A DNA stretch of 64,000 nt, taken from positions 1-64,000 of the forward strand of contig NZ_JAGHQU010000002.1 in assembly GCF_017744135.1 (NCBI RefSeq), written 5' to 3'. The position numbers and the translations under genes were made by a program. Shown piece after piece: positions 34,083 to 56,064 of the stretch. The notes beneath the pieces are model-generated. The model made no database searches, was not told where the DNA came from, and saw only the letters and a list, made by a program, of their open reading frames with translations. How positions within the stretch are numbered: the stretch's first letter is position 1; each line of letters opens with the position of its first letter. This DNA is from Endozoicomonas sp. G2_2 (lineage in GTDB: Bacteria > Pseudomonadota > Gammaproteobacteria > Nevskiales > Salinisphaeraceae).

Positions 34083-34368
34083 GGAACCTCTGATCTATTC
34101 CTCCGCGCATCGCGTTTGTGTCCCCAAAGGCGTTGATACAAGACGCAGAGCGCAGCGTCCGGGTCATTCCCGGAACAAGCTCTGCAACGCGGTTGCGGCG
34201 TCTTTGGGGCCAAACTTTTCTCGCAACGCGAGAAAAGCCGGGGCTTTGCGCGCGCCTGGACGGCGTCAGCGCTCGCTACCGTGCAATGAGCACGCTACGC
34301 TCGCGCTTCCTTGCCAGGCGCGCGCAAAGTCCTCCGGCGCGACCACGCAGGAATAGAGCAGAGGTTCC
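34083..34368. repeat. Structured element with 20-bp terminal inverted repeats, upstream of aroC
   Basis: The ends GGAACCTCTGATCTATTCCT (34083-34102) and AGGAATAGAGCAGAGGTTCC (34349-34368) are inverted repeats with one mismatch. Inside are a branched arm, CCCCAAAGGCG (from 34122) with CGTCTTTGGGG (to 34209), enclosing GCAGAGC/GCTCTGC and TCCGGG/CCCGGA; a perfect hairpin CTTTTCTCGC-AAC-GCGAGAAAAG (34215-34237); and a 16-bp perfect arm CTTTGCGCGCGCCTGG/CCAGGCGCGCGCAAAG (34244-34259 with 34314-34329) enclosing CGTGC/GCACG. The element fills the whole prmB-aroC gap. Its right end contains the AGAGG ribosome-binding site of aroC. It has no convincing reading frame. It may be a MITE-like element or a structured leader. 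Confidence 0.8.
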
Positions 34369-34369
34369 T

Positions 34370-35470
34370 ATGGCAGGCAATACCTGGGGCGAACGATTCA
34401 CGGTCACCACCTTCGGCGAAAGCCACGGTCCGGCGATCGGCTGCATTGTCGATGGCTGCCCGCCCGGGATCGAGATCAGCGAAACTGACTTGCAGACCGA
34501 TCTGGATCGCCGCAAGCCGGGCACATCGCGCTATGTGACCCAGCGTCGCGAGGACGACTGCGCGCGCATCGTCTCCGGTGTCTTCGAGGGCCGGACCACG
34601 GGCACGCCGATCGGTCTGATCATCGAGAACACCGACCAGCGCTCGCGTGACTACTCCAAGATTAAGGACGTGTTCCGCCCCAATCATGCGGACTATGCGT
34701 ACCTGCAGAAGTACGGCGTTCGCGACTATCGCGGCGGCGGGCGTTCCTCCGCGCGCGAGACGGCGACCCGCGTGGCGGCCGGCGCGATCGCGCGCAAGGT
34801 GCTCGCCGAGCGCTTCGGCGTGCGTATCCAGGGTTATCTCGCAGCGATGGGGCCGCTCACGCTCGCCTGCGAGGATCTGGATGCGGCCAATCACAACCCG
34901 TTCTTCTGCGCCGAGCCGACTCGGCTCGAAGAGCTGGAGAACTACATCAACGCGCTGCGCAAGGACGGCGATTCGATCGGCGCGCGTATCAACGTCGTCG
35001 CGACCGGCGTGCCGCCGGGGTGGGGCGAGCCGGTGTTCGACCGGCTCGACGCCGAGATCGCCAAGGCCCTGATGAGCATCAACGCGGTCAAGGGCGTGGA
35101 GATCGGCGACGGCTTTTCGGTGGTCAATCAGCGCGGCTCGGAACACCGTGACGAGATGGCGCCGGACGGCTTCGCCAGCAATCATTCCGGTGGTATCCAG
35201 GGCGGTATATCCAGCGGCCAGACGATCCGTGCGAGCATGGCGCTGAAGCCGACGTCGAGCATCATCATTCCCGGCGACACCATCGACACGCAGGGCAACG
35301 CCACGCAGATGCGCACCACGGGACGGCACGATCCCTGCGTCGGTCTGCGGGCGACGCCCATCGCCGAGGCCATGCTCGCGCTCACGCTGCTCGATCACGC
35401 GCTGCGCCATCGCGCGCAAAACGCGGACGTGCAGGGCACACTCGCGCCCATCGCCGCCGAGCGCGGTTGA
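34370..35470 (+). CDS. aroC: Chorismate synthase
   Basis: A 366-residue FMN-dependent chorismate synthase, the last step of the shikimate pathway (EPSP to chorismate). Signature segments are [19 protein letters not shown] (about 17-35), [17 protein letters not shown], the FMN/EPSP-binding [20 protein letters not shown] block followed by [14 protein letters not shown], and [17 protein letters not shown] near the C-terminus. The ATG follows AGAGGTTCCT, which lies in the terminal inverted repeat of the upstream element. Translation could therefore be blocked if that repeat pairs in the mRNA. A longer frame from 34118 reads through the element and is not credible. Confidence 0.96.
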
Positions 35471-52899: not shown

Positions 52900-54411
<1,512 letters not shown>

Positions 54412-54429
54412 CCAGCCGCTTTGGTGCAC

Positions 54430-54461
54430 GGGCCCGGCGATCGCGGTTGATCGCCGGGCCC
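54430..54461 (+). terminator. Hairpin after purF
   Basis: GGGCCCGGCGATC and GATCGCCGGGCCC form a perfect 13-bp stem with a six-base loop (GCGGTT), beginning 19 bases after the purF stop. The downstream AGTCGTTTC is only modestly U-rich. It is probably a terminator or 3'-end stabiliser for the accD-to-purF run. Confidence 0.65.
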
Positions 54462-54513
54462 AGTCGTTTCATACTGCATCTGCGCCGATTTGGAACAGCT
54501 TGCGGGCGCCCTA

Positions 54514-54782
54514 GGGCCTGCCAATATTTACGTGCATCGCCGCGTTGCTGTTCAAAATCGCGCCAAGCAAGGCGGGAGGAGCGAAGTTGGGTTTATACCC
54601 AATGAGCGACGACCAACGCCGCTTGGCGCGATTTTGAGCGCAACCCTTCGGGACGCATGCGATTTTCCTGCAATCCCGCGTTACGGCTCGCTAATGTAGC
54701 GCAGCTACACAGCGCTCGCCGCGCCTTGGCTTGCAACAAAATCGCATGTGGCGCGACGATTCAGGTAAGTATTGGCAGGCCC
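54514..54782. repeat. Structured element with 26-bp terminal inverted repeats, upstream of metZ
   Basis: GGGCCTGCCAATA... (54514-54539) and ...TATTGGCAGGCCC (54757-54782) are inverted repeats over 26 bp with three mismatches. One arm is the perfect 16-bp pair at 54553-54568 and 54621-54636 (CAAAATCGCGCCAAGC / GCTTGGCGCGATTTTG), extended by GTTGC/GCAAC and enclosing hairpin TTGGGT-TTAT-ACCCAA (54587-54602). The second arm is CATGCGATTTT/AAAATCGCATG with TGCAA/TTGCA, enclosing hairpin TGTAGC-GCA-GCTACA (54695-54709). There is no coding potential I trust. The architecture matches the element upstream of aroC although the sequences differ. The remaining gap sequence to metZ holds a terminator. 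Confidence 0.8.
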
Positions 54783-54812
54783 GAAATTCCGCTAAACGGG
54801 TCGAGGGACGGC

Positions 54813-54846
54813 AAGCCTGGTTCGCAACGCGATAGCGGGCTTTTTT
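54813..54846 (+). terminator. Terminator or attenuator just upstream of metZ
   Basis: AAGCCTG pairs with CGGGCTT (one T-G pair), with an inner CGC-AAC-GCG, and is followed by a run of six T residues (54841-54846). It lies only 30 bases before the metZ ATG and downstream of the structured element. It is an odd place for a plain terminator of purF, which already has its own hairpin, so attenuation of metZ is possible. Confidence 0.65.
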
Positions 54847-54876
54847 GTGTCCGCGATCCAACGCCTGGAGATTTTT

Positions 54877-56064
54877 ATGACCGACGATTTCGACGAAAGC
54901 TGGGGCACCGCCACGCGCGGCGTGCGCGCCGGCACCCATCGCACGCCCGAAGGCGAGCACAGCAGCGCGATCTACATGACCTCGAGCTTCGTGTTCGACT
55001 CCGCGGACGCGGCCGCCGCGCGCTTCGCGGGCGAAGAACCGGGCAATATCTATTCGCGCTTCACCAATCCCACGGTCGACGCCTTCAGCAAGCGGCTTGC
55101 CGCCATGGAGGGTGGCGAATGCTGTGTCGCGACCGCGTCGGGCATGTCGTCGATTCTGGCCACCTGTCTGGCTACACTGGAAGCGGGCGACCATATCGTG
55201 GCCGCGCATACGCTGTTCGGTTCCACCATCGGGCTGTTCAACAACTATCTGGGCAAGCTGGGCATCACCACGAGCTATGTCGCGCCCGATGATCTCGACG
55301 CCTGGAAGGCGGCCATCACGCCGGCCACGCGCATGCTGTTCGTGGAGACGCCGTCCAACCCGCTGACCGAAATCGTGGACATGGCAGCACTCGCCGAGCT
55401 CGCGAACGAAAACGATGCGCTGCTGGTGGTCGACAACTGTTTCTGTACGCCCGCGCTGCAGCGCCCGCTGGATTTCGGCGCGCATGTGGTCATCCATTCC
55501 GCGACCAAGTTTCTGGATGGGCAGGGCCGTGCGCTTGGCGGTGCGGTGATCGGCGATGCGGATACCGTCGGCGACAAGGTATTTCGTTTTCTGCGCACCT
55601 GCGGCCCGACCATGAGCCCGTTCAACGCCTGGGTGTTCTACAAGGCACTCGAGACGCTGGAAGTACGCATGCGCGCGCACTGCGAGGCCGCCCAGAAGGT
55701 TGCCGAATGGCTGGAACAACAGCCCGCGGTCGAGCATGTCTACTACCCCGGGCTGACGTCGCATCCGCAGCACGAACTGGCCGCCCGGCAGCAGCCGGCC
55801 GGTTTCGGCGGCATCCTGTCGCTACGCCTGGCCGGCGGGCGCGAGGCTGCGTTCAAGCTCATCAACGCCACGAACATGATCTCGATTACCGCCAATCTCG
55901 GTGATACGCGCACGACGATCGTGCACCCGGCGAGTACCACCCACGCACGCATTTCGGCAGATGAGCGCGCGCGGGCCGGCATTACCGACGGCGTGGTACG
56001 CATTTCGGTCGGGCTCGAGAACGTCGAGGACATCATCGCCGATCTCGAGCCGGGGCTGGCGTGA
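54877..56064 (+). CDS. metZ: O-succinylhomoserine sulfhydrylase
   Basis: A 395-residue PLP enzyme of the Cys/Met-metabolism family that makes homocysteine directly from O-succinylhomoserine and sulfide. The PLP lysine is Lys211 in IHSATKFLDGQGRALGG. Other blocks are YSRFTNPTVDAFSKRLA, TASGMSSILATCLATLEAGD and FVETPSNPLTEIVDM. Position after purF and the GDTRTTIVHPASTTH end favour MetZ over MetB or MetY. The ATG at 54877 follows CCTGGAG; the in-frame 54847 start overlaps the terminator run and is less likely. It connects with the sulfur genes cysB/cysG elsewhere in the window. Confidence 0.92.
   Translation: MTDDFDESWGTATRGVRAGTHRTPEGEHSSAIYMTSSFVFDSADAAAARFAGEEPGNIYSRFTNPTVDAFSKRLAAMEGGECCVATASGMSSILATCLATLEAGDHIVAAHTLFGSTIGLFNNYLGKLGITTSYVAPDDLDAWKAAITPATRMLFVETPSNPLTEIVDMAALAELANENDALLVVDNCFCTPALQRPLDFGAHVVIHSATKFLDGQGRALGGAVIGDADTVGDKVFRFLRTCGPTMSPFNAWVFYKALETLEVRMRAHCEAAQKVAEWLEQQPAVEHVYYPGLTSHPQHELAARQQPAGFGGILSLRLAGGREAAFKLINATNMISITANLGDTRTTIVHPASTTHARISADERARAGITDGVVRISVGLENVEDIIADLEPGLA

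Follow-up and report, generated by a model that had tools for sequence, protein, structure and literature searches.

The metZ leader and the element within it

The window, that is, the whole 64,000-nucleotide stretch of DNA that was analysed, contains the gene metZ on the + strand (54877-56064). The coding sequence starts at the ATG at 54877, and the open reading frame is listed from an upstream GTG. The gene name is taken from a preliminary description of this DNA, and the product is presumably O-succinylhomoserine sulfhydrylase. Homologues of metZ are present in all 14 genomes of the genus, which is inferred to be Salinisphaera and in which the genome of the window is designated G000.

The leader of metZ, also on the + strand, opens with a putative promoter (54447-54475; TTGATC, 17 nt, CATACT) recognized by eye; a consensus promoter scan found none at these positions. 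Of the 14 genus leaders, all but that of G002 have a CATAMT box ahead of P1. Immediately upstream lies a perfect 13-nt inverted repeat (window positions 54430-54461), which overlaps the putative -35 box. The promoter is followed by the 5' half of a candidate SAM-II aptamer (54482-54511), composed of the P1 5' strand (54482-54486), GATTTG, GCTTGC and the P1 3' strand (54505-54509). This half is near-identical in the metZ leaders of the 14 genomes. The 3' half (54783-54802) carries the AAAT strand, part of loop L3, and the pseudoknot/ligand strand GCTAAACGGG, the core motif of RF00521; it is identical in G003 and one indel apart in G007. Further downstream, a terminator-like hairpin (AAGCCTG/CGGGCTT, 54813-54846), deduced from folds and sequence, runs into T6 and is not among the results of a terminator scan. 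All 14 genus leaders read CGCCGATTTG..ACAGCTTGCGGGCG, then GCTAA at variable distance, then a run of 4 to 7 T at the terminator position.

The two aptamer halves are separated by an element of 269 bp (54514-54782, + strand), whose start lies 4 nt beyond the end of P1 (54509) and whose end lies 8 nt before GCTAAA (54791). The dinucleotide TA, which typically flanks the family described below, precedes it (54512-54513, + strand), and the right flank is GA. The limits given in the preliminary description are exact, and the element folds as a sharply bounded three-way junction. The junction is closed by the left (54514-54544) and right (54752-54782) terminal inverted repeats of the + strand, which are 31 nt long and 87% complementary, with 4 mismatches. 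The 26-bp closing repeat with three mismatches reported earlier was close to this measurement. Two long arms lie inside, each closed by a small hairpin as had been described. Arm 1 (54552-54637, + strand; cap TTGGGT..ACCCAA; helices 3-5 of the family alignment) pairs 54552-54568 with 54621-54637 (17 nt, 100%), and arm 2 (54648-54756, + strand; cap TGTAGC..GCTACA; helices 7-10) pairs 54648-54676 with 54728-54756 (29 nt, 79%).

The RNA fold of the + strand of the element has an energy of -159 kcal/mol, against a mean of -98.2 (sd 5.2) for shuffled sequences (z -11.7; none of 200 shuffles equals it), and the fold of the - strand has a z of -10.4. The element comes first in the list of inverted repeats of the 64-kb window (25 of 35 pairs). 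Within the folded metZ leader, each of its 18 closing pairs (54514-54531/54765-54782) has a probability of at least 0.996. Shuffling, covariation and the presence of relatives in all 14 genomes of the genus rule out a chance inverted repeat.

The best reading of the metZ leader, judged from its sequence, is a SAM-II riboswitch aptamer split by the element. The P1/GATTTG/GCTTGC/GCTAAA core is present and the gene downstream, metZ, functions in methionine synthesis. This riboswitch context, missed in the preliminary description, is what links this copy of the element to metZ. The relevant part of Corbino et al. (PMC1273637) places the SAM-II promoter just before P1 and the terminators after P2, and the portion of PMC9373788 on the metZ SAM-II switch of S. 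meliloti predicts that it controls termination. The leader resembles this switch and RF00521, as far as those sections present them, in the downstream metZ, the GATTTG/GCTTGC/GCTAAA core, the AAAT strand and the terminator-like hairpin before the open reading frame. Unlike RF00521, it holds a 269-nt putative MITE between P1 and the 3' strand of the pseudoknot.

Rfam at the gathering threshold detects no known family in the window, and the segment 54400-54900 gives no Rfam match at E <= 5, which the long insert alone could cause. The insert-free leaders of three sister species score under the RF00521 cut-off of 36, with 34.7 bits in G009 (E 3.7e-4), 33.7 in G005 (6.7e-4) and 29.4 in G013 (0.0099). 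In these leaders, the loop with the 5' strand of P2 falls 3 nt short of the RF00521 consensus. The inner P2 strands UUGC/GCUAA are kept in the printed genus leaders, in which outer P2 pairs were not found by eye. When the genus is searched with RF00521 at E <= 10, every genome and all 14 controls match, and below 0.001 only the metZ leaders of G009, G005 and G013 remain. Across the order, RF00521 is detected at E <= 0.01 in 24 of 85 genomes, 10 of them over the cut-off, and in none of 14 controls; a metZ homologue accompanies 19 of the 20 SAM-II loci examined. The inserts create a blind spot for such searches: at E <= 1 the model finds the three insert-free metZ leaders of the genus and none of the 11 with an insert, despite their core.

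The repeat family and its candidate mobiliser

Relatives of the element occur in each of the 14 genus genomes, and the outcome considered in the preliminary description, that no other example would exist, did not occur. The genome of the window holds 10 further matches. The ten other copies of this genome with inspected flanks lie in varied places with no common pathway visible in those flanks, and the earlier idea that the family is in essence a structured RNA linked with amino-acid or aromatic biosynthesis is not supported. In G010, a genome assembled as a single contig, the terminal-repeat pattern is matched 113 times and its reversed control never. In a DNA search across the order, 30 of 85 genomes, belonging to 8 of 21 genera, contain relatives. 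Among named genomes, exact terminal-repeat matches are found in S. japonica, in a Salinisphaera MAG and in one MAG labelled Lysobacterales, from which the genus of the window is taken to be Salinisphaera. The latter (PBAO01000003/15/25/31/55) has Salinisphaera terminal repeats and may be mislabelled.

End-finding was carried out on 51 stretches, seven of which (L065, L066, L069, L072, L079, L080 and L087) were dropped with absent or spurious ends. The 44 copies kept are mostly 264-272 bp long (range 204-282 after trimming), and S. japonica additionally has terminal-repeat pairs of 280-309 bp. The copies end in near-perfect repeats, typically start with GGGCCTGTTG and are mostly flanked by TA. 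The target-site duplication, for which the preliminary description had proposed to look together with empty sites, is TA: a copy in S. japonica is flanked by TA on both sides and the empty site in G008 has a single dinucleotide (TG). This duplication is read from one resolved empty site, away from the metZ locus. In a search with L090 for a site that is polymorphic between G003 and G004, only its first 210 bases aligned apart from element matches.

At L014:1003-1005 a copy starts at the apparent stop codon of the preceding frame (GAC TAG), where the CTAG target seemingly supplies or keeps the stop. Many matches in G006, as well as G008:C48, lie at contig base 1; several draft contigs start or stop inside this element, which suggests assembly breakage. 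Among the matches listed for G010, two long terminal-repeat pairs (L166 and L167) enclose ordinary-looking genes.

The candidate mobiliser is a transposase of the IS5 family. The genus contains 17 loci with a PF13340 transposase, and six of these are IS of 855-860 bp that lie between TA dinucleotides and have GGGCSTGTTG-type ends; the IS ends of L191 and L197 are one or two bases off this type. Three other loci (L182, L189 and L192) have different ends and eight yielded no end pair. In G001, the ends of the IS (GGGCGTGTTGAGGTTTC) equal those of the MITE copy L086 of the same genome over 17 bases. The intact open reading frame of L186 matches the IS5-family transposase model NF033580 at 1.8e-79, as well as PF13340 and DDE_Tnp_1. 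A search of G000 for PF13340 gave no match, so the copies in this genome may be stranded or moved by another enzyme. An IS630-type mobiliser, an idea that came from the TA target, was set aside on the evidence of one gene in G010, which we take to be IS630-like and which has different ends.

The evidence supports a non-autonomous IS5-type MITE as the probable identity of the metZ element. Like IS5-family MITEs, it has terminal inverted repeats, a length of about 270 bp, a TA target and too little room for a transposase, and IS with similar ends are present in sister genomes. It differs from them in its interior, which in the metZ type consists of two long covarying hairpin arms. Of the two identities offered in the preliminary description, the MITE family, undescribed and split into diverged subfamilies, is the one that agrees with the multiple copies, the terminal inverted repeats, the single TA duplication, the IS5-family partners and the relative at aroC.

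This relative (34083-34368, 286 nt, z -12.4) has the same general fold layout as the metZ element, and the earlier remark on their likeness holds for this layout. A profile of the metZ family recovers it over positions 12-255 of 266 with 41.7 bits. Of eight aroC-type loci, seven exceed the inclusion threshold of the profile and L027 does not; the E-values derive from a search of about 27 kb. Since the profile recovers the aroC element, the two are taken from their sequences to be distant relatives with different ends. At window positions 34083-34370 the aroC element abuts the start codon of aroC, and both its flanks are TAT. Its right end supplies AGAGG, which could serve as a ribosome-binding site. 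None of the remaining 13 genomes of the genus has an element within about 70 bases before aroC, and the element at this site may be specific to the species of G000.

Insert states at metZ across species

The space between P1 and the AAAT strand is occupied differently among the 14 species. A hairpin of 7-9 bp, with variable sequence, is present in seven, a relic in two (G003 and G004) and a full element in two (G000 and G007), so that 11 of the 14 genus leaders are interrupted here by one insert or another. The relic is a 35-nt hairpin, whose ends GGCCGG/CCGGCC match the ends of the G007 element. The three remaining species have nothing, and their leaders read CCTATAAATTCC or CCTATAAGTACG at the insertion point. 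No hairpin occurs at this point in 16 RF00521-positive loci of other genera, a biased sample, as it was found with an insert-free model. The 7-9 bp hairpins of the seven species may be further-worn relics of the element.

In the tree of element copies (44 entries, L146 replacing L056 of the same locus), the two metZ copies form a clade with support of 100/99, and for this reason a single insertion at metZ is favoured for G000 and G007. Two independent insertions are opposed by this clade and by the common right junction GAAATTCC. The tree of metZ and purF places G007 as sister to the element-free G009, followed by the element-free G005. This patchy distribution could reflect clean losses or an exchange of leaders by recombination, both of which are possible. 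An interpretation of CCCTATAAATTCC as an excision scar was dropped, given that most of the 16 loci of other genera with an RF00521 match have loops of the TATAAAT/TAATAAAT type, in a sample biased to insert-free leaders. An extra open reading frame between purF and metZ, presumably encoding an NYN-domain protein, is present in G005, G009 and G010 (L145, L147 and L152) and absent in G007 and the other printed leaders. It may mark recombination at the locus.

Covariation and the state of the probable split riboswitch

The structure of the family was analysed in an alignment of 24 of the 44 copies, chosen by hand for length and diversity. RNAalifold predicts 92 pairs, 55 of which have changed on both sides, contrary to the absence of covariation that the preliminary description had allowed for. 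In this alignment 96.0% of the cells are paired, compared with 82.6% in shuffles and 33-41% in slid versions. At metZ, the comparison of G000 with G007 gives 11 pairs changed on both sides, of which 10 are still standard pairs (10,000 permutations gave a mean of 1.4 and never 10), and 15 pairs changed on one side, of which seven are still paired.

Template switching in the course of replication corrects long imperfect palindromes. The covariation could be a by-product of this process in DNA, which would make RNA-level selection unnecessary anywhere in the family, and we give this explanation a substantial chance, somewhat short of even. It concerns the structure of the family and is compatible with an insertion in a riboswitch, so its likelihood is not set against those of the other readings. 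Compensation is family-wide, wherever the 24 aligned copies sit, and where pairs are recovered from both strands, G-U cells outnumber A-C cells only slightly (25 against 14). On the other hand, correction would turn persistent G-U pairs into Watson-Crick pairs, and such pairs persist at columns 33/244 (24 of 24 copies), 52/120 (15 copies) and 54/118 (15 copies), yet these columns were picked by an RNA fold of the same strand. Because the G-U excess is weak, the evidence does not choose between RNA-level selection and palindrome correction as the process that keeps the arms matched. As compensation occurs throughout the family, the compensated changes at metZ may likewise come from template-switch correction rather than from selection on the leader.

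The switch probably remains functional and tolerates the element as an insertion domain of the SAM-II riboswitch; this is a prediction from sequence comparison. The MITE would have inserted at a TA within loop L3 of the riboswitch in the metZ leader. In the RNA, its terminal repeats would pair as a long helix, inside which the two arms fold. This closing helix would join the ends of the element and bring P1, on the 5' side, to within a few bases of AAAT-CCGCTAAA, on the 3' side, much as a closed hairpin does. Short hairpins in the leaders of sister species would bring the flanking strands together in the same way. Binding of SAM would then form P1 and P2 and favour the terminator before metZ. 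The split RNA is thus modelled as one that could bind SAM and terminate transcription, and the insertion would be tolerated rather than beneficial. The apparent preservation of both aptamer halves seems to be owed to the fold of the element, a self-contained knob that joins them.

The main rival to a working switch is that the MITE broke it, leaving metZ constitutive or permanently terminated and the halves as a decaying pseudo-riboswitch. The 269 nt that part P1 from the ligand strand, and the lack of an Rfam match at E <= 5 in 54400-54900, which the long insert could also explain, are in line with such a loss. So is the low probability of P1 (about 0.07) in a nested-only fold of the leader, where another helix competes with it; nested tools cannot score the pseudoknot. 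The halves, however, are almost unchanged: the comparison of G000 with G007 shows one changed site among 51 aligned and one indel in the halves, whereas the element differs at 50 of 271 sites (18.5%), and the probability of this if the halves changed at the rate of the element is 4e-4. The 3' half is also identical in the relic-bearing G003, the terminator-like hairpin with its T-run is kept, and 11 of the 14 genus leaders carry some insert at the same place. A broken switch is considered unlikely on this account.

A non-mobile identity, in which the element serves the riboswitch as a dedicated functional RNA domain or belongs to a class of regulatory RNA for biosynthesis genes, is very improbable: the strong covariation of the family and the compensated changes at metZ would fit, but many copies per genome in varied places, terminal repeats, TA flanks, the empty site in G008, IS5-family partners with similar ends and the element-free leaders of three species do not.

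The preferred reading, a tolerated insertion in a working switch, combines a known kind of MITE with a known kind of riboswitch. The open-access PMC texts contain, among the matches listed, no MITE within a riboswitch aptamer and no Salinisphaera MITEs. Stem-forming MITE transcripts are known in general, and a review, in the part bearing on this point, notes that MITEs fold as stable RNA and speculates that they could form riboswitches (PMC10969869). The BOX repeat in the pneumococcal trp leader is similarly a small mobile repeat within a riboswitch-bearing leader, judged by its authors, in the passage concerned, to be still functional (PMC3049150). As described there, BOX sits between two T-box riboswitches, whereas the metZ element lies within one aptamer, between pseudoknot strands. 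The 'variable insertions' of riboswitches, in the portion of PMC2258182 that deals with them, are likewise stem-loops at set sites that leave the core undisturbed and have no stated origin; compared with that account, the metZ insertion is identified as a mobile element and has a relic stage in sister species. The tolerance of riboswitches for stem-loops (PMC2258182) and the folding of MITE RNA (PMC10969869), as far as these sections of the two sources go, meet in one RNA.

MITE insertion may be a route by which riboswitches gain their variable-insertion hairpins, with the states coexisting at metZ in Salinisphaera and the element of G000 and G007 as a compensated structural part of the aptamer. 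We offer this as a tentative and rather doubtful proposal. With sister species that lack the element, have it at full length or keep a relic of it, the origin and tolerance of insertions in pseudoknot aptamers become directly testable.
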